NCBI GenBank assembly: GCA_020850475.1
Contig: JADZEO010000118.1
Span: forward strand, 1-37,521
DNA length: 37,521 nt
DNA from: Bdellovibrionales bacterium
Lineage (GTDB): Bacteria > Bdellovibrionota > Bdellovibrionia > Bdellovibrionales > UBA1609
Reading direction: 5' to 3'
A program made the position numbers and the translations under genes. The notes beneath the pieces are model-generated. The model was given only the letters and a program-made list of their open reading frames with translations. It had not been told where the DNA came from and did not search any database. Shown here one piece after another: positions 6,896 to 15,577 of this stretch (position 1 is its first letter; each line of letters starts with the position of its first letter).

Positions 6896-8260
6896 TTGCG
6901 GCTCAACCGAGCAACCCTTCTTGTCATATTTTTCCTAGTCACCGCTGGGACGGTTGAGGCCGGTATTTTTAAATCTTCTTCGGTTACGGTCCAAGTAAAG
7001 GCCAAAACGGTTTCCTGTGAGCCGCGAATCGAATGGCCAGCCCCTTCAATAAATCAAAAGAAGTACATTTCGCCCGGCGATGACTACTGTGCGACTCTGA
7101 GCTCAGCGCAACCTGGCGATGAAATTATCTTTGCGCAAGGAACCTACACCTCGCCCTGTCGCTTTAGCCCGAATGGCGAGCCGGCTCGCCCCATCTACAT
7201 TCGTTCCGCATTTTCTGAACTCAGTAAGCGGGCCAAATTTTCTTGTAGCGGCTGTTCGGGAGTGAGCAATTTTTTTGAAGTCGGTGGGTCCTATTTGGTG
7301 ATCAAGGATTTGTACTTTGTTAACAACGATGCCGATATCATGGTGCGTTTTCTAGCGGCTCACCATGTGATATTGGAAAATACTCAGATGGAAAATATCG
7401 ATGGCCAAGCCATTACCGCCAATTCGGGCAATACCGATAGCTTGATCATTCGCGAAAACAAAATTTTTAATATTAACTACACCGCGACCTACTTTGGCTG
7501 CCACGACGGAAGTTGCAAGAGTACGAACTTGCTGATCGAAGGCAATTACTTGGACGCTTCGGCCATTAATAATTCTTCCATCACCGGCTATGCGATGGAG
7601 ATTAAGCTCAACAGTTACGGGACGATTCGTGACAATTCTTTTTTTAACGGACAAGGCCCGGCCTTGATGGTGTACGGAAACAATGACGCCAACGCACCAG
7701 CAAACATCATCGAGGGAAATTACCTCGAGCGATCCCGTAACGATGCGGCTCTTAACATAGGCGGTGGCCCCGCCCTCGTGCGCAACAACGTCATTGTCAA
7801 TCAGTCGGGAACCGCTTTGTTTGCACAAAACTATGGGGGGCGGGGGCTACAACGAAAGATTTCAATCGTGAGCAATACCATCGTGAGTTCGAGTGGCACT
7901 GCCATTATGGTTCAAGGGTGGTCGGCCGGAGCCGGAAATGTCGTGAGCGGAAACGCCATCTATTCCGCGACTCCTTATTCTCCGAGCCCGATCGGTGCCA
8001 CGCTGGCTGACAACGTCGTCTGTGGAGCTAGTAGCGGCTGTTTTATGGGTTCGGCGGCCACGTCGCCTTACAATCTGAGCCCTCAAGCTGGGGGCCCGTT
8101 GGCCTCCGTGATCCCAGCCACCGGCTATCCCCAATATGATTTCTTTGGCAACTCCCGGGCCGCCAATCAACCGGGAGCTCTCATTACCGATTCAGGAACC
8201 AGCGGATTGTCTTTGACCTATCTCCAGGCCCGACCTCCGCGACTCAAACGCTGCTTTTAA
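6896..8260 (+). CDS. Exported right-handed parallel beta-helix protein
   Basis: 454 residues starting at TTG 6896, with GGAG at 6882-6885. The signal peptide is LLVIFFLVTAGTVEA. The body carries the coil pattern of pectate-lyase-like folds: ladders of short hydrophobic strands with N and G at turns, for example LVIKDLYFVNNDADIMV, HVILENTQMENIDG, SLIIRENKIFNI, NLLIEGNYLD, GTIRDNSFFNG and ALVRNNVIVNQSG. Known members include polysaccharide lyases and surface-binding proteins. No lyase active-site set was identified, so enzymatic activity is open. A polysaccharide ligand is plausible. Its 3' end overlaps the convergent tlpA-like gene by 4 bp. Confidence 0.8.
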   Translation: MRLNRATLLVIFFLVTAGTVEAGIFKSSSVTVQVKAKTVSCEPRIEWPAPSINQKKYISPGDDYCATLSSAQPGDEIIFAQGTYTSPCRFSPNGEPARPIYIRSAFSELSKRAKFSCSGCSGVSNFFEVGGSYLVIKDLYFVNNDADIMVRFLAAHHVILENTQMENIDGQAITANSGNTDSLIIRENKIFNINYTATYFGCHDGSCKSTNLLIEGNYLDASAINNSSITGYAMEIKLNSYGTIRDNSFFNGQGPALMVYGNNDANAPANIIEGNYLERSRNDAALNIGGGPALVRNNVIVNQSGTALFAQNYGGRGLQRKISIVSNTIVSSSGTAIMVQGWSAGAGNVVSGNAIYSATPYSPSPIGATLADNVVCGASSGCFMGSAATSPYNLSPQAGGPLASVIPATGYPQYDFFGNSRAANQPGALITDSGTSGLSLTYLQARPPRLKRCF

Positions 8261-8796
8261 AATTTCTTTTCGAGAGCTTGAACTTTTTTTTCGTCGAGAA
8301 TTCCCTCGATGCGGGCGAGGACTTTGCCCTCTTGGTTGATCAGGACACTGACTGGCAGGGCCGCAATGCCGTAGCGGCGCGCGACCTCGCCTTTTTCATC
8401 AAACACCACCGGGAAGTGTTTGGCCGCAAGCTTGGGTGAACTCAATAGCTCGCTCCATTGGTCCGAAGTCGCGACCCCCACCATCGCCAGGGAATCTTTG
8501 GAGCCATAGTTTTCCCAGAGGTAGGTGAGTTGAGGTTCTTCTTGAGCGCAAGCTCCGCACCAGCTGGCCCAAAAGTTGAGTAAGGTTAATCGCGGTTGGG
8601 GGACAGCGACCATTGGACGATTGGCTTCGTTGGCAGCGACCAGAGGCAGTTCAAAGGGCGGAGCCGGGGTCCCAATCATGGCCGCCGTGAGAGGGGATTC
8701 AGGCTCGTAATCTTGGATCCACCAAAAGGCTCCTCCCAACGCCACGAGGAGCGCCGTGTTCACTATCAAGATGCTGGTCCAACTAGCCTTCGTCAT
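8257..8796 (-). CDS. TlpA/ResA-like membrane-anchored thioredoxin
   Basis: 179 residues from ATG 8796. An N-terminal membrane anchor (about residues 6-28) is followed by a periplasmic thioredoxin fold with the active-site motif WASWCGAC. The typical later elements VVFDEKGEVARRYGI and ALPVSVLINQEGKV include the cis-proline at ALP. Proteins of this type keep cytochrome c haem-binding or CuA cysteines reduced. As last gene of an oxidase operon, assembly of the CuA site or the dihaem cytochrome is the likely job. It overlaps the upstream 73-residue gene by 14 bp and has no ribosome-binding site of its own, so it is probably translationally coupled. A longer frame from GTG 8841 would put 15 extra residues before the anchor and is disfavoured. 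Confidence 0.88.
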   Translation of the reverse strand: MTKASWTSILIVNTALLVALGGAFWWIQDYEPESPLTAAMIGTPAPPFELPLVAANEANRPMVAVPQPRLTLLNFWASWCGACAQEEPQLTYLWENYGSKDSLAMVGVATSDQWSELLSSPKLAAKHFPVVFDEKGEVARRYGIAALPVSVLINQEGKVLARIEGILDEKKVQALEKKF

Positions 8797-9004
8797 GAGA
8801 ACGCGACTTGAGCCGTCGCCGAATATAATAGACGGCTCCACCTACAAACAGCAGTGGCATCATCGTCATGAGGGCGGTGGTCAATAAAAAGGGCCCTTGG
8901 CTCCCGTCTTGGCCAAAGCCGCAAACGGTGCAGGCATGAGCGGCCGAGCTGAACCCGGCGCTTGCAAGGATCAAAAATAAACAAGCGTATAAAGAATCGG
9001 CCAT
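8783..9004 (-). CDS. 73-residue membrane protein of the oxidase operon
   Basis: Starts at ATG 9004, inside the 3' end of the second subunit III gene (34-bp overlap), and ends inside the tlpA-like gene. It has a signal-like hydrophobic start (SLYACLFLILASAGFSSAAH), then a short loop ACTVCGFGQDGSQG with a CxxC pair. A second membrane segment follows (about residues 39-61) with a basic tail IRRRLKSRSH. The loop and CxxC would face the periplasm. Small proteins with a Cys-rich loop and one C-terminal helix recur in oxidase clusters of related bacteria (from memory). A copper or thiol role in oxidase assembly is a reasonable guess, not shown. Nested overlaps on both sides support a real coupled gene. 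Confidence 0.75.
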   Translation of the reverse strand: MADSLYACLFLILASAGFSSAAHACTVCGFGQDGSQGPFLLTTALMTMMPLLFVGGAVYYIRRRLKSRSHDEG

Positions 9005-9549
9005 ATCAATACCACCAAAGACCAATACATTTGCATTGCGCGTAGATTGGGTAGGCGCAAAGTGTTGCGACGCAATTTCCAGTACATCATTCCCAGTCCC
9101 ACCAGGCCTGCCAATACATGCAAGGCATGGGAGCCAATAATCAAAAAGAAGAGCGCGCCAAAGATATGCTCCGTTGCCGACAAACCAAACTTGCCGAGTT
9201 GAAGCCATTCGTACCCTTGCACACCAACAAACACACCACCGAACAAAAAACTGCGAAGAAGCCAAGACTGAGCGGAGGACGTACGATGGCGGGCGAACTC
9301 TCGGCCCGCCCACAACAAAAATGCGCCACTGGCGATCAACACCAAGGTGTTGAGTCCGGTCGTCAAGACCGGCAACTGAATACCTGCGGGTAAAGCCCAA
9401 GTGACGCGCTCTCGACGAATGACCAAGAAAGCGCTAATGAGGGCGGTAAAAAACATCACTTCCGTCGCAATAAAAATCAACATTCCTAGAACCGCATTAG
9501 GCAGCGCCGGACGACGAGAAGTTGGCATTACGACGGATGCAGTCGACAA
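8971..9549 (-). CDS. Cytochrome c oxidase subunit III-like protein (second copy)
   Basis: 192 residues with five membrane segments, matching the shortened subunit III family that lacks the first two helices of the mitochondrial form. Landmarks are MLIFIATEVMFFTALISAFL near the start, LFGGVFVGVQGYEW, FFLIIGSHALHVLAG and a C-terminal MYWSLVVLIWPILYT. It is a divergent partner of the subunit III gene at 9905. Clusters with two subunit III genes after subunits II and I recall the coxMNOP type of alternative oxidase. The start is TTG 9549, chosen because AAAGGAG lies at the right distance; ATG 9528 is the alternative. Confidence 0.88.
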   Translation of the reverse strand: MSTASVVMPTSRRPALPNAVLGMLIFIATEVMFFTALISAFLVIRRERVTWALPAGIQLPVLTTGLNTLVLIASGAFLLWAGREFARHRTSSAQSWLLRSFLFGGVFVGVQGYEWLQLGKFGLSATEHIFGALFFLIIGSHALHVLAGLVGLGMMYWKLRRNTLRLPNLRAMQMYWSLVVLIWPILYTLVYF

Positions 9550-9560
9550 AGTGCTCTCCT

Positions 9561-9896
9561 TTAGTGAGTACTACCGCTGTCGGATGGAATGGGAATGCGT
9601 TCCCAATTTTGTCCGCCGGGAGTCATGACGTCTGGCGAAGTTCCAGCAAACAATAAGACCATGAAAATCACCATGGCCAGGAGAAGGTAAGTGACATACT
9701 TCTTCTCCACGTTCAAATGCATGAAGTGGGCCGCGACGAGGTAGGCTTTAACAATCGCAATGCCAAATGCCGTAATCAGCGTGACCAGTTTAATTCCGAG
9801 CATCGGTCCGCAGACACTGATGAGGAATAAGACCGTCAGTATGGCCCAGATTTTTACATAGTGAGATGTGTGGGAGGATTGTGCATGTGCGTTCAT
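9561..9896 (-). CDS. Cytochrome c oxidase subunit IV (prokaryotic type)
   Basis: 111 residues with three membrane helices, typical of bacterial subunit IV. The segment IVKAYLVAAHFMHLNVEKKY carries the family's K-A-x-x-V-x-x-x-F-M-H-L signature. ATG 9896 is preferred because GAGG sits six bases upstream. ATG 9908 overlaps the stop of the preceding subunit III gene as ATGA but has no ribosome-binding site, and would add four residues. Non-catalytic subunit likely to stabilise the complex in the inner membrane. Confidence 0.88.
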   Translation of the reverse strand: MNAHAQSSHTSHYVKIWAILTVLFLISVCGPMLGIKLVTLITAFGIAIVKAYLVAAHFMHLNVEKKYVTYLLLAMVIFMVLLFAGTSPDVMTPGGQNWERIPIPSDSGSTH

Positions 9897-9904
9897 CGGT
9901 GACC

Positions 9905-10483
9905 TCATTTAGCAATGTAAAGCATGGGGAAAAGGAAAATCCAGACGATATCGACAAAGTGCCAGTAGATTCCAATGAGTTCCACTCGGTTCATGTGCTG
10001 CTTCTTGAGAACGTCAAAGGAGATGATCGCCATGATGACCATTCCCGCGATGACGTGCAGAGCGTGGAGACCACAGGCGGTGTAATAGAATGACCAAAAA
10101 ACACTTTTGGTCATCACCAGCCCGTGGGAAATCTCACCGGACCACTCAATGGCTTTGTTGATCAGGAAGATCGCTCCACCACCAATCGTCAGCCAGATCA
10201 ACCGAAAAGCCTTTTTCTCTTCACCGGCTTCGGCCGCCTGATGGGCGAGCACCACAAACAAACTCGAGGTGAGCAGCACAAAAGTATTGATCGCCCCAAA
10301 CCAAGTGTTGGTGTGCGCGGCTTCGGCATCCCAGCCAGAATGAAACAGCCGGAGCATAATGTAGCTAACCAAGAGACCGCCAAAAATGACAATCTCAGAC
10401 CCGATCACCCACCAAACAGCAAGTTTGCCTGTGGGAATCCCTGTTGCGCTTCGATTGGTTGCAATTGGTTGTGGAAAAGACAC
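9905..10483 (-). CDS. coxC: Cytochrome c oxidase subunit III
   Basis: 192 residues from GTG 10483, with AAGAGGT six bases upstream and the subunit I stop 11 bases away. A frame from ATG 10519 would overlap subunit I by 25 bp and lacks a ribosome-binding site. Five membrane helices are seen: WWVIGSEIVIFGGLLVSYIM, NTFVLLTSSLFVVLAHQA, a middle helix with FLINKAIEWS, FYYTACGLHALHVIAGM, and a C-terminal VDIVWIFLFPMLYI. The H-A-L-H-V-x-x-G and WHFVDIVW signatures fit subunit III of haem-copper oxidases. It supports the catalytic core and proton uptake. Confidence 0.93.
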   Translation of the reverse strand: MSFPQPIATNRSATGIPTGKLAVWWVIGSEIVIFGGLLVSYIMLRLFHSGWDAEAAHTNTWFGAINTFVLLTSSLFVVLAHQAAEAGEEKKAFRLIWLTIGGGAIFLINKAIEWSGEISHGLVMTKSVFWSFYYTACGLHALHVIAGMVIMAIISFDVLKKQHMNRVELIGIYWHFVDIVWIFLFPMLYIAK

Positions 10484-10494
10484 GTTGTACCTCT

Positions 10495-12168
10495 TTATGC
10501 TTTCTCGTTTTGTGGCCAAAAGTCACTCGCTCGCCCCGGTACGCTGTATTCATAGGGGCCCCGATAGACAGACGGGAGTTCTTTCCAGTTGCCATGGGGG
10601 GGAGGAGACTCGGTGGTCCATTCTAGGGTATTGGCATTCCAAGGATTCTTGCCAGCCTTTGCCCCCTTCTTCCAGCTCACTACAAAGTTGTAGAGAAAGG
10701 GGATTTGGAACAGCAGCATGAAAATCAAGGCGATGGTCGCAATGATTCGCAGGTCATTCATGTAGGGCTTAGCCAGATCCGGAAAGTTATCGTAGTTGTA
10801 AATACGGCGATGATCACCTGCCGCACCGGTATAAAACAGCGGCAAGAAGATGAGATGAAAGGTAATGATTGTGCCCCAAAAATGGATTTTACCCAGCGTC
10901 TCATTCATCATCCGACCAAACATTTTGGGATACCAATAATAGATGCCCGCGAAGACCGCCAAGATGGCGATGGGCACAAAGGTAAAATGGAAATGGGCGA
11001 GAACAAAATAGGTATCGTGAAAGTAAATGTCTGAAGCGCTGGCTCCCAAGAAAATTCCGGTGACCCCGCCGAGCAAAAAGGTGACGAGGAAAGACAGAGC
11101 AAACAACATGGCACTGGAAAACTCAATCGAGCCCTTGTAGAGGGTTGCGATATAAACAAACACCATCTCGGCAATCGGAATCGAAATGAGGACGGTCGTA
11201 ATGGTGAAAACATTGGCCATGCGGGGATCAATTCCTGCCACAAACTGGTGGTGGGCCCACACAAACATACTCAAAGTACCCGTGGCGATGGCGGTGTACA
11301 AAATCGTCTTATAGCCAAATAGTTTTTTGCGGGCAAAGACCGGCAGAATCTCAGCGACAATGCCCATCGCTGGCAACAGAACCACATACACCTCGGGATG
11401 ACCGAAAAACCAAAACAAGTGCTGCCACAAGATGGGGTCACCGCCCTTAGCTGGGTTATAAAAACCAACGGCGAACAATTGGTCAAACAAGAGCATCACG
11501 GCGCCAGCGACCAGCGGGCCGACCGAGGCCATAAATACGATGCTTGCAATAACAATCATCCACACCAGAATCGGAATGTCGTACATTTTCATTCCCGGAG
11601 CGCGGGCGTTCATCATGGTGGTAATAAAATTGATACCGCCTAACAAAAAGGCCACAAACTCAAGAGCGACCGCAATTAACCACAGCACTGACCCGAGGGG
11701 AGTTAGGCTGTAGTCGGGGTTAGACGACAGTGGGGGGTAGGCGGTCCAGGCGCCAGCAAAGGCTCCGCCGGGAACGAAAAACGAAGCCAACAACACCACC
11801 GCACTCAAGAAAAAAATCTGAAAGGACAAGCGATTGATCCGTGGGAAAACCATGTCGTCGCAACCAATCATCAGGGGAATTAGAAAATTCCCTAAAGCTG
11901 CGATCAACACCGGCATCGCCACCCAAAAGATCATGATGGTACCGTGATTGGTAATGAGAGCGTTGTACTCTCCCGCGGTCACCAGACCCCACAAGGGCAC
12001 ATCTTTACCCGGAAAGGCCATCTGCATACGGAAGGCGTAGGAGAAAAACCCTCCCAGTAATGCCATGAACATTCCAGTAAAGAGATACTGAAGGCCAATG
12101 ACCTTATGGTCCGTCGAAAAAATGTACTTTTGCCAAATGCTTTGATGTGCGTGTTCTGCGTGACTCAT
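10495..12168 (-). CDS. coxA: Cytochrome c oxidase subunit I, K-channel residues replaced
   Basis: The 557-residue catalytic subunit (12 helices) reduces oxygen at haem a3-CuB. Ligands are visible: His75 (ITNHGTIM) and His394 for haem a, His392 for haem a3, and His257, His306 and His307 for CuB, with Tyr261 (HPEVY) as the cross-linked tyrosine. D-channel residues are kept: Asp105 (CDDMVFPR), Asn94, Asn112 and Glu259. An ungapped match to the well-known Rhodobacter numbering puts Met335, Ile332 and Ala272 at the K-channel positions Lys362, Thr359 and Ser299. Usual VPTGIK reads IPIAEM here. ATG 12168 forms an ATGA overlap with subunit II, with GAGG upstream. The identity is certain; the unusual proton path is inferred. 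Confidence 0.96.
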   Translation of the reverse strand: MSHAEHAHQSIWQKYIFSTDHKVIGLQYLFTGMFMALLGGFFSYAFRMQMAFPGKDVPLWGLVTAGEYNALITNHGTIMIFWVAMPVLIAALGNFLIPLMIGCDDMVFPRINRLSFQIFFLSAVVLLASFFVPGGAFAGAWTAYPPLSSNPDYSLTPLGSVLWLIAVALEFVAFLLGGINFITTMMNARAPGMKMYDIPILVWMIVIASIVFMASVGPLVAGAVMLLFDQLFAVGFYNPAKGGDPILWQHLFWFFGHPEVYVVLLPAMGIVAEILPVFARKKLFGYKTILYTAIATGTLSMFVWAHHQFVAGIDPRMANVFTITTVLISIPIAEMVFVYIATLYKGSIEFSSAMLFALSFLVTFLLGGVTGIFLGASASDIYFHDTYFVLAHFHFTFVPIAILAVFAGIYYWYPKMFGRMMNETLGKIHFWGTIITFHLIFLPLFYTGAAGDHRRIYNYDNFPDLAKPYMNDLRIIATIALIFMLLFQIPFLYNFVVSWKKGAKAGKNPWNANTLEWTTESPPPHGNWKELPSVYRGPYEYSVPGRASDFWPQNEKA

Positions 12169-12899
12169 ATTGCCTCGGTCCCTTTGCTAGGATTTTGCTC
12201 AGTGGTCGATTCTTGCTGATTTTGTTTGGTGACTTGGTCGGGTCGAAGACTCTTGACCCAGGCCTGATGGTCTTCGGGAGATTCGATGTGAATTCGGGCC
12301 GCCATCGCGCCGTGGGCGATCCCGCACATTTCGGCGCATTGGATGTCGAACTGGCCTGTCTTGGTGGGCTTAAACCAGCCGGTGATGATACGGCCGGGAA
12401 CCGCGTCTTGTTTGAGGCGGAACACGGGGACCGAAAAACTATGGAGAACGTCATCGGACTCAAGTTTAAAGTGATAGGTCTTGTTCACTTCGACGTGAAG
12501 CTCGTCGACGGTTCCGATATCATCGGCGGTGCCGAGCTGATTGTCCGGCCCCGGGTGATAAAACTTCCAGGCCCACTGCTGAGCGACGATGCGAATGGTG
12601 CTGTCGGGCGGAGGCAGGGTTTGCTTGACCCCAAACCAAATCTTGAGGGCAAAGGCAATGATCACGATGTCACAGACAATCACGGCATAGTGGGGCCAGT
12701 GAATCCACTTGGTTTCTTCAGGCTTTTCGCCGGACACATAGGCCGCTTTGGGATTTTTGCTCCGGCGGTAGGCAAACATGAAATACCACAAGATGCCTTG
12801 GGCAACAAAAAACCAAAAGCCGCCAAGCAAGGCGATCAGTAAGATCATGAAATCAATATCAGCGGCAAAACTGGAAGCTCGTTCGATGATGAATTGCAT
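12165..12899 (-). CDS. coxB: Cytochrome c oxidase subunit II
   Basis: 244 residues. Two N-terminal membrane helices (about residues 15-40 and 68-90) are followed by the periplasmic cupredoxin domain. It begins with the conserved VAQQWAWKFYHPGPD segment. CuA ligands are visible: His in VLHSFSVPVFRLKQD and the CAEMCGIAHGAM box (two Cys, His, Met). No cytochrome c domain is fused at the C-terminus, so electrons must come from a separate carrier, probably the dihaem cytochrome encoded two genes upstream. ATG 12899 has GGAAGG nine bases upstream. The 3' end overlaps subunit I by four bases. Confidence 0.95.
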   Translation of the reverse strand: MQFIIERASSFAADIDFMILLIALLGGFWFFVAQGILWYFMFAYRRSKNPKAAYVSGEKPEETKWIHWPHYAVIVCDIVIIAFALKIWFGVKQTLPPPDSTIRIVAQQWAWKFYHPGPDNQLGTADDIGTVDELHVEVNKTYHFKLESDDVLHSFSVPVFRLKQDAVPGRIITGWFKPTKTGQFDIQCAEMCGIAHGAMAARIHIESPEDHQAWVKSLRPDQVTKQNQQESTTEQNPSKGTEAI

Positions 12900-13044: not shown

Positions 13045-13677
13045 TTACTGTAATGAATAGATATGTGCCAAAACATCCAAGGCCGCTTGATCATCAGCGA
13101 GGGTTGCGGCCATCGGCGCCATGGTTGCGCCCGTCGCATCTTTTGTCGCATCGGCCCCTCGTTTGCCATGCTTAAAATTATTGATTTGCGCGAGCAGATA
13201 CCAGTCGCTCTGACCGGCCAGCGGTGGGGCGTTCATGGCCTGCTGACCTTTCCCGTCGGCTCCGTGGCAGGCAGCACAAGTGGCATAGGTGGTGCCGCCA
13301 TTGGCAGCATTGCCCGTCGTGAAAGTCATGGGTGGCTTGACCGGCTTAAGTTCGGCAACATACTTTGCAATTGAACTCACATCGCCCTCGTAGCGAAGCA
13401 TGCGAGCGATCGGGCGCATTTTGAGGCCAGCGTAGTCACTGGGATGTGACCCGCGGCTTCCGTCACGAAATTTATTGAGTTGGTTCTCCAAATACCATTG
13501 CGGCAGACCCGCTATCGCCGGAGCGAGCAAGTTTTGGCGGCCCTCACCTTGGGCGCCATGGCAGGCGGCACACAATTTAAAAAGCGATTGCCCCCGGTCG
13601 GGAGCTGCCAAAGCAGAGACGTCCCAAAGGAGGCCACCGACGAGGGCGGTGCTAAGCACATACTTGATGAGATTCAC
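13045..13677 (-). CDS. Dihaem cytochrome c (c4-like), exported
   Basis: 210 residues from GTG 13677 with AGGAGA five bases upstream. A signal peptide (about residues 1-24, cleavage after SALAA) is followed by two similar class I cytochrome domains. Each has a CAACHG haem site (Cys36-His40 and Cys134-His138). Likely axial methionines are in GLKMRPIARML and ATMAPMAATL. The two-domain form with WYLENQLNKFRDGSRG and WYLLAQINNFKHGKRG is typical of cytochrome c4, an electron donor to terminal oxidases. As first gene of the operon it probably feeds the CuA site of subunit II. Confidence 0.92.
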   Translation of the reverse strand: MNLIKYVLSTALVGGLLWDVSALAAPDRGQSLFKLCAACHGAQGEGRQNLLAPAIAGLPQWYLENQLNKFRDGSRGSHPSDYAGLKMRPIARMLRYEGDVSSIAKYVAELKPVKPPMTFTTGNAANGGTTYATCAACHGADGKGQQAMNAPPLAGQSDWYLLAQINNFKHGKRGADATKDATGATMAPMAATLADDQAALDVLAHIYSLQ

Positions 13678-13774
13678 GCAATTCTCCTGGATCGATTTTT
13701 TGTTGTGACTTTAAGTCGGGTTAATAATCGAGCTTTCATTTAATTGGTACTTTTTTTGTCCAGTTTGTTCGGTT

Positions 13775-13803
13775 ATTGTAAAGAGCGACCCCTAAGGGGT
13801 CAA
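13775..13803 (-). promoter_or_regulatory. Promoter of the cytochrome oxidase operon
   Basis: Minus strand: -35 TTGACC (13803-13798), 17-base spacer, -10 TACAAT (13780-13775). Both boxes are 5/6 matches to the sigma70 consensus with ideal spacing. The expected start of transcription is near 13768, about 90 bases before GTG 13677. Confidence 0.65.
13787..13801. promoter_or_regulatory. 15-bp palindrome, candidate operator
   Basis: GACCCCT-A-AGGGGTC is a perfect palindrome with 7-bp arms. It covers part of the -35 box and most of the spacer of the oxidase promoter, and lies 26 bases upstream of the start of the divergent Rrf2-type regulator. A protein bound here would block the oxidase promoter and probably also affect the regulator's own expression. 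Confidence 0.5.
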
Positions 13804-13826
13804 GAGTTGATAAAGGGATAGTATTG

Positions 13827-14282
13827 ATGACGATATCGGCTTTAGACGAGTATTCAATTCGATTTTGTCTGCGCCTTGCGGCCTGCGGCAAATCTCATTT
13901 GGCAGCCGCTGAGATTGCCGAAGCCGAAGGAGTTTCGATTGATTACGCTCGCAAGGTCCTCAATCTCATGACTCGGACGAGGATTCTAGAACCCGTGCGG
14001 GGACAGAAGGGGGGATACCGCTTAAGTTCACCCCCCCAGAGTATCAATTTGGCCGATATTTTGCGGGCGGTTCACCCGGAAAAAGGTGAGCTTTGCAATT
14101 ACTGTGAGAAATTCAAGGGCCATGAAACTGATTGTGTCCTGCATGCGGAATGTTCCCTGCGCCCGGTGTGGCAAGCGGTTTCCGACACTGTCACTTCGTT
14201 GTTAGAGACGGTCACCCTGGCTGACCTTATGAAAAATGAAAGAGCTCTTGGGCGAGTGTTGATTCAGCAGCGCAAAGCTTGA
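13827..14282 (+). CDS. Rrf2-family transcriptional regulator with four cysteines
   Basis: 151 residues from ATG 13827 (AAGGGAT upstream; a TTG one codon earlier is less likely). The N-terminal winged helix-turn-helix (about residues 5-70) has the Rrf2 features AAAEIAEAEGVSIDYARKVL and the wing GQKGGYRLSS. A dimerisation helix and a cysteine cluster follow at Cys90, Cys93, Cys103 and Cys109. Rrf2 regulators such as IscR, NsrR and RsrR bind Fe-S clusters with cysteines in this region, so redox, NO or iron sensing is likely. The spacing here differs from IscR. It lies divergent from the oxidase operon over a palindrome, suggesting control of that operon. Its end overlaps the convergent radical-SAM gene by 19 bp. 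Confidence 0.9.
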   Translation: MTISALDEYSIRFCLRLAACGKSHLAAAEIAEAEGVSIDYARKVLNLMTRTRILEPVRGQKGGYRLSSPPQSINLADILRAVHPEKGELCNYCEKFKGHETDCVLHAECSLRPVWQAVSDTVTSLLETVTLADLMKNERALGRVLIQQRKA

Positions 14283-15577
14283 GCGAGTCGAGGCGCAGCC
14301 CGCTGCCAATCCGTGCCGCGCACTTGATCGAGGGCGGCCACATACTGGAGGAAGTCGCTGAGCTCAGGTCGTTCGTTGGCCTGAATTCGGGAGACGACGG
14401 TGAGATGCTGTTTGAGGCTACTCAGAAGAGCCAGTCGCTCACTGGACTTGGGATCAGAGGGAGCCGCCGCTATCTGCTCGTCGATTTCCCCATGAATTTC
14501 TTTAAGCAGGGCATCGGGCAAAGTCGCCACCGATAAGCACTCAGGAGATCGCACCGAATTCCAGAGGATTTGATGGCGATGATCACCGGAAAGTGAGAGT
14601 TTCATTTGCGAAACCCAATCGAAGATCTGGCGGTAATCAAAAATATTCAAAATTTGCGCAGTAATAATCCAGCGTACGGAGTAACTCGGCCACCGCCACT
14701 GAGCCAACAAGGTCATTTGGTCGACAAAATCCTGCCACTTGGCGGGATAACGGATGTACTCAAAAGAATCGGCGACACCATCGATTGATATATTAAGCTC
14801 GACCGCCGCAAAATTTTCCCAGAGTTTTAGCCACTCAGGATCAATTTGAGTTCCGTTGGTGTCATACGACAAGCGAATTTGGCCGGCATAACCTTGTTTG
14901 ACGCAGGTGAGGAGAATTTCTTTGTGCATGGGAATAAGGAGCGGCTCTCCCCCTGAAAAATGGAGGCGACGAAGTCCCGAACCATGGGTCTTAATGAACT
15001 CCAGCAGTTCGCAGGATTCATACCACTCATGGCTGCCCTCGGGAACTTCGGGGTGTTGCAAAAAGCGGCTGGCCGACTGAGGGAGAGGGCTTTGCCGTTG
15101 CAAAAGTTCAAAATCCCGCACCCATTTTGACGAGGTGTCGGGTCGGCACATCACACATTTGAGATTACAGACGTTTCCTAAGCGCAGATCCAACGAAACG
15201 GGATGGTGGGGCAGCGCGCCCTCGGGAGAGGTCGAAGCAATCAATTCCTTGAGATCACCCAGCCAATCAGGCTGACGGTTCATCAGCGAGTTTCTTTTAC
15301 TGGTGTGGCCGCGAGCCTCAATTTGTGAGCAAAATCGGCAGAGCTCCGGCAGCTTCCCGCTGAGCATTTGCTTTCGCGCCGCTCGTAGAGGCGGACTATT
15401 CCAAACCTCGGTGACGGTTTGAGGTCCACCCAGCACGAGGCGACTACCGTCAGTTTGGCGAAGGGCCGTGGTGTTGCAGCACAGGCGCACAAACCCCCTG
15501 ACGCTGGTCGCGAGTTGAGTCCAAGGCAATGGACAAAAGGCCGCGGGCAGTTCTGAAGGGGAATATTTCTTTTTCAC
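14264..15577 (-). CDS. Radical SAM protein with N-terminal SPASM/twitch-like domain
   Basis: 437 residues from GTG 15577 (GGGAAG upstream). The radical SAM site CNLKCVMC (Cys137, Cys141, Cys144) lies in the middle of the protein. Before it, residues 12-90 have the look of a SPASM or twitch domain: FCPLPW, RLCCNT, WNSPPLRAARKQML, then LCRFC. These cysteines (15, 33, 34, 80, 83) could hold an auxiliary Fe-S cluster. After the site come the usual LHFSGGEPLL and YDTNGTQ segments. Members of this domain order are found in peptide- or sugar-modifying contexts, but the substrate here is unknown. It is divergent from a methyltransferase and near glycan genes. Confidence 0.85.
   Translation of the reverse strand: MKKKYSPSELPAAFCPLPWTQLATSVRGFVRLCCNTTALRQTDGSRLVLGGPQTVTEVWNSPPLRAARKQMLSGKLPELCRFCSQIEARGHTSKRNSLMNRQPDWLGDLKELIASTSPEGALPHHPVSLDLRLGNVCNLKCVMCRPDTSSKWVRDFELLQRQSPLPQSASRFLQHPEVPEGSHEWYESCELLEFIKTHGSGLRRLHFSGGEPLLIPMHKEILLTCVKQGYAGQIRLSYDTNGTQIDPEWLKLWENFAAVELNISIDGVADSFEYIRYPAKWQDFVDQMTLLAQWRWPSYSVRWIITAQILNIFDYRQIFDWVSQMKLSLSGDHRHQILWNSVRSPECLSVATLPDALLKEIHGEIDEQIAAAPSDPKSSERLALLSSLKQHLTVVSRIQANERPELSDFLQYVAALDQVRGTDWQRAAPRLAQALRC

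Follow-up and report, generated by a model that had tools for sequence, protein, structure and literature searches.

The gene of an Rrf2 family regulator and a caa3-type cytochrome oxidase operon stand divergently in the window, i.e., the whole stretch of 37,521 nt that was analyzed, and together they make a credible local switch of a familiar kind, which we regard as plausible but unproven. That this regulator controls the oxidase locally appears, taking all readings together, fairly probable, and about two thirds of this expectation falls to a perfect palindrome over the oxidase promoter. Our best explanation, which we hold tentatively, is that a SUF-type Rrf2 protein with changed DNA specificity was captured by the oxidase operon and represses the oxidase and itself via this palindrome. 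The palindrome is a plausible candidate site and not demonstrably the operator of this protein.

Gene layout and the divergent promoter region

The oxidase operon lies on the minus strand and starts with a dihaem cytochrome c gene (13045–13677; two PF00034 stretches). It is followed by the genes for cytochrome c oxidase subunit II (CoxB, 12165–12899; 135.5 bits with a cut-off of 147.7, and PF00116), subunit I (CoxA, 10495–12168; PF00115, 437.8 bits), subunit III (CoxC, 9905–10519; PF00510), the caa3-type subunit IV (9561–9908; TIGR02229, over its cut-off), a second subunit III-like protein (8971–9549; PF00510), and, at the cluster end, a thioredoxin-like protein of the DsbE/ResA type (8257–8841; profile matches). 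Two COX3 (subunit III-like) genes, those at 8971–9549 and 9905–10519, are found in this one oxidase cluster. The Rrf2 gene (13827–14282) is located on the plus strand and encodes 151 amino acids; its ATG matches the position where the aligned relatives begin, 20 of the 22 having Met there. At its 3′ end, it overlaps convergently with a radical SAM gene with a Twitch domain (14264–15577, minus strand; NF033640, over its cut-off).

The divergent intergenic region (13678–13826) comprises 149 bp with a G+C content of 37.6% and is bordered on one side by the GTG that starts the dihaem cytochrome c gene and on the other by the Rrf2 start codon, ATG. A scan of 13400–14100 (701 bp) returned a single promoter match, formed on the minus strand by a predicted −35 element TTGACC (13798–13803) and a predicted −10 element TACAAT (13775–13780) with a 17-bp spacer. 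This promoter of the oxidase operon agrees with the consensus at 10 of 12 positions, and shuffles yielded 0.4 matches on average (sd 0.6). For rrf2, the scan found no promoter of comparable quality, the single relaxed match reaching 8 of 12. An inverted-repeat search located the perfect 7+1+7 palindrome GACCCCTAAGGGGTC at 13787–13801, where it overlaps the −35 element by four of six bases and the 17-bp spacer by 11. The initial annotation, which had named a near-consensus oxidase promoter with a perfect palindrome over its −35 element and spacer, was confirmed in both points. The start codon of rrf2 lies 25 bp beyond the palindrome, and the cytochrome c gene is 109 bases away from the palindrome arm. 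As part of our best explanation, and with the same reserve, the gap would be a control region shared by the oxidase operon and rrf2.

A probable SUF-type regulator away from the suf genes

Profile matches, alignment, and tree suggest that the regulator belongs to a SUF-regulator-like clade of the Rrf2 family. It belongs to the Rrf2 superfamily (PF02082, 97.6 bits, cut-off 30; TIGR00738, 91 bits, cut-off 73.3) and scored under the equivalog cut-offs of IscR (60.2/207.55 bits), NsrR (54.8/182 bits), and RirA (61.8/193 bits). The best equivalog was the SUF regulator TIGR02944 with 81.4 bits, under the cut-off of 110.65. With the protein itself excluded, its best matches were Rrf2 genes beside suf genes. 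We aligned it with 22 relatives (34–40% identity), comprising 21 of the 30 phylum matches above 70 bits (L009, L010, L078–L096) and L038 from a contig scan. The fetched DNA, of which some pieces were short, contained sufC or sufB for 20 of the 22 relatives and neither for L083 and L087; the suf matches were 53–77% identical to the suf queries, the query's own locus being excluded. In the tree, the window protein branches among the suf-type rows of the 22 relatives, and the fork of all 23 is supported by 93/97 (not starred), while its place inside this fork, on a long branch, has a support of 80/46 only. The suf genes are not adjacent to the window gene, which is flanked by the oxidase operon and the radical SAM gene. 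The suf-linked Rrf2 gene of the same genome is a separate one (L044; sufB match of 72% identity there), found elsewhere in the tree. Searches for a close orthologue of the window protein were negative: of 147 relatives, 88 gave any match at E 0.001, and of 368 phylum genomes, 53 did so at E 1e-10 (both counts include the own genome), none of them being close, and the contig scan yielded five relatives only, with an identity of at most 36%.

Translation of the gene revealed Cys90, Cys93, Cys103, and Cys109, as had been annotated, and further cysteines at positions 14 and 20. The spacing that the initial annotation took to be unlike IscR proved ordinary for the clade. Cys93 (codons of Cys90 to Cys93, 14094–14105) aligns with the first canonical cluster ligand, and Cys103 and Cys109, spaced as C-x5-C (14133–14153), with the second and third. 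This triad is invariant across all 22 relatives, as are Glu8, Arg58, and two glycines (GG) in the wing. Since the C-x9-C-x5-C pattern is common to the clade (21 of 22 relatives; the second interval is x6 in L010), the spacing is no novelty and was rejected as such; only Cys90 is extra, with a cysteine at this position in none of the 22 relatives. The triad and Glu8, as the candidate for a fourth ligand, fit a putative Fe-S binding Rrf2 protein. For NsrR of S. coelicolor, the cluster is described as being held by three cysteines and Asp8 (PMC5411485).

Upstream of the suf-linked Rrf2 genes, we identified the 24-bp dyad AATCAATAC-N6-GTATTGATT at 19 of the 22 loci, with 23–32 bits on the refined matrix; these scores are in-sample, i.e., obtained on the loci used to build the matrix, and the rows include several near-identical species from a single genus. 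It was missed at L010, L038, and L088. Where a position was given, the dyad lies 31–74 bp upstream of the Rrf2 start (L009, L078–L086, L089–L096), and the one at L087, 242 bp upstream, may be spurious. The dyad is likely the operator of the SUF-type Rrf2 clade. In the gap of the window, the best score was −4.0 bits (at 13743), compared to 23–32 bits at the 19 loci, and −3.8 bits, inside rrf2, was the maximum in 13678–13900. The 24-mers centered on the palindrome reached −39 to −11 bits, and the GC-rich palindrome is unlike the clade operator. In the own genome, ten near-matches to the clade operator (at most two mismatches) were found vs. three for the reversed control, but all ten score 1.8–14.2 bits, and seven lie inside open frames of more than 640 bases. 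We therefore rejected the idea that the clade operator is retained elsewhere in the genome, the excess over the control being partly unexplained. Its absence from the gap and the low scores of the genomic near-matches, far below those of the clade sites, fit a changed specificity.

The recognition helix carries the residues Asp39-Tyr-Ala-Arg42-Lys43 (13941–13955, plus strand), in which Arg42 replaces the Ser of 21 of the 22 relatives. The base-reading residues of E. coli IscR are given as Ser40, Glu43, and Gln44 (PMC9973013); by our own reading, with IscR standing outside the alignment, Asp39, Arg42, and Lys43 would be their equivalents. The missing clade operator and the exchange of Ser for Arg42 thus make a changed specificity reasonable, and an Arg facing the G-rich palindrome arm would fit it. 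A further-reaching scenario, which we place on the unlikely side, is that of a rewired SUF-type sensor of Fe-S status that left the suf operon, exchanged Ser for Arg42, acquired a CxxC through a fourth cysteine, and replaced the AT-rich operator by a GC-rich one, thereby tying Fe-S supply or oxygen directly to the terminal oxidase.

The palindrome and the competing readings

How often such a palindrome arises by chance was assessed with 5000 dinucleotide shuffles of the gap, counting perfect palindromes with an arm of at least 7. They occurred in 1.1% of the shuffled gaps with a spacer of 1, in 2.0% with spacers of 0–1, and in 6.7% with spacers of 0–8. The whole window contains 24 perfect palindromes (arm at least 7, spacer 0–8), while 30 shuffles averaged 18.5 (sd 3.6), and hence they show no marked excess. 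From the shuffle frequencies and the window count it follows that the palindrome is by itself weak evidence. It is only mildly improbable, and its position on the promoter adds to this otherwise weak evidence.

These frequencies favor the reading that the palindrome is a functionless chance inverted repeat, at most a hairpin in the rrf2 leader, and so does the RNA, which forms a hairpin of six pairs only and is barely more stable than shuffled sequence (z −1.20, matched by 26 of 200). A strong RNA hairpin was rejected on these values, and a terminator by a terminator check of the gap region. Furthermore, no conservation was seen at the orthologous oxidase loci described below. On the other hand, the arm is GC-rich in a gap of low G+C content (when the arm must also have five G/C bases, a criterion set post hoc, the frequency drops to 0.14% of the gap shuffles), and the promoter that the palindrome overlaps is the only good one in the region. 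We consider a chance repeat unlikely.

Four orthologous oxidase operons (L046, L047, L048, L049) were identified in the 368 genomes of the phylum, with leading cytochromes c of 51–53% identity. The exact palindrome is absent from all four genomes, so that the search upstream of orthologous cox operons that had been proposed as a check did not yield the palindrome. These loci show no adjacent Rrf2 gene either: none was found at the three judgeable ones (L046, L047, L048), the neighbors of L049 not being judgeable because only 107 bp are available upstream, and the Rrf2-row profile gave chance-level scores only on L046–L049, compared to 154 bits for the window locus as the positive control. No genome that keeps the regulator beside the oxidase was found among the 147 relatives, the 368 phylum genomes, and the contig scan. 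Other dyads, unrelated to the palindrome, are present upstream at L048 and L049. At L047 (G017), a single arm, AAGGGGTC, without a second one, precedes the gene by 110 bases, a distance that counts an intervening run of 13 N, compared to 109 bases in the window. Some 8-mer of the palindrome occurred in 4.4% of mononucleotide shuffles of the L047 gap, and we regard this arm as a weak lead against non-conservation.

The proposed search elsewhere in the genome was equally negative. The exact 15-mer occurs once in the own genome, its 11-bp core has three copies vs. three for the control pattern, and up to two mismatches gave seven places vs. ten for the reversed control. Across the phylum, the exact 15-mer and its reversed control were each present in two of 368 genomes, and the other exact copy (L097) has no oxidase or Rrf2 gene within the 1,658 bp around it. 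A regulon marked by the palindrome was rejected on these counts, which are no higher than those of the controls. A near copy at L005 (1501–1515; G000:C84:11238–11252) matches at 13 of 15 positions with an intact core and lies just upstream of a gene for a TonB-dependent receptor, identified by its Pfam Plug domain; the remaining core copy is located where a cation-efflux gene ends.

Ranked next, and likewise unlikely in our view, is a reading in which the Rrf2 protein does regulate the oxidase, only not from the palindrome but from AATTGGTAC-N7-GTCCAGTTT (13742–13766), just downstream of the transcript start inferred from the −10 element. This rival candidate operator, a weak SUF-type match with one extra spacer base, is the best gap match to the halves of the clade operator (12.4 bits, reached by 26 of 1000 shuffles with spacers of 4–10) and has a central T tract. 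In its N7 spacer and its right half-site (GTCCA), it conforms to the core described for RisR, Tt/gGAC-N7-GTCCt/a (PMC9973013), although the left half agrees with that description at three of five positions only. However, the site scores far below the clade sites (23–32 bits, N6) and needs the extra base, and it was picked after a scan with a freedom of spacer that we had allowed ourselves. Finally, it is improbable that the palindrome serves another, unlinked regulator with the Rrf2 gene as a mere neighbor: the palindrome is unlike both the clade operator and the RisR site as described (PMC9973013), and one of the two other genomic core copies lies just upstream of the TonB-dependent receptor gene, but no regulon emerged (three core copies vs. 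three for the control), and the gap is flanked by the oxidase operon and rrf2, then the radical SAM gene, with no regulator besides Rrf2.

The proposed switch and related systems

Returning to the Rrf2 protein acting through the palindrome, we infer the following switch. A cluster-binding repressor of the SUF-regulator clade, detached from the suf genes, would repress the caa3-type oxidase operon on the other side of the gap and probably also rrf2. With an intact Fe-S cluster, it would bind the gap; loss or alteration of the cluster by oxygen, NO, or iron shortage would make it release the DNA. The likeliest single site would be the palindrome over the −35 element and spacer; a dimer sitting there would shut out RNA polymerase. 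The compact Fe-S or redox switch suggested by the initial annotation therefore stands in part: the Rrf2 protein is genuine, carries the triad and Glu8, and is encoded divergently, with a palindrome placed to block the −35 element, but the likely operator of its relatives is wholly different and the palindrome is absent from the four orthologous oxidase loci. If true, the switch would show a regulator that changed both operator and target on its move from Fe-S assembly to respiration genes, a small and testable case in which the likely clade operator offers a reference for measuring the change of specificity.

Compared to the regulators of SUF operons (TIGR02944 and the suf-linked genes of the phylum), the window protein is alike in C-x9-C-x5-C, Glu8, and the wing with Arg58 and GG, but differs in scoring below the TIGR02944 cut-off, in its location away from suf, in lacking the clade operator, and in Arg42 and the extra Cys90. 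RisR of Myxococcus xanthus is described as a three-cysteine Rrf2 repressor whose binding site is an imperfect palindrome overlapping promoter elements (PMC9973013). By this description, its sites have a GAC-N7-GTC core and its targets are isc and suf, whereas here the palindrome reads GAC-N9-GTC and the target would be the oxidase genes; the GAC-N7-GTC core is absent from the 149-bp gap. The palindrome, with 15 bp, is also shorter than the NsrR site, given as 23 bp. RsrR of Streptomyces venezuelae is reported to repress its divergent neighbor from a short shared gap with operators, but its sites are of an 11-3-11 type and the neighbor gene is a different one (PMC5015018). An Rrf2 gene beside cytochrome oxidase genes is already known with ctaR (PMC2754497, PMC5506826). 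CtaR (AFE_3141) of Acidithiobacillus ferrooxidans is an Rrf2 protein for which an iron-responsive role in governing the biogenesis of aa3 oxidase has been predicted (PMC2754497). As far as its description allows a comparison, its gene resembles that of the window in standing among cytochrome oxidase (biogenesis) genes, but it lies inside a cluster for heme A/O biogenesis, whereas the window gene is divergent from the structural genes (PMC2754497).
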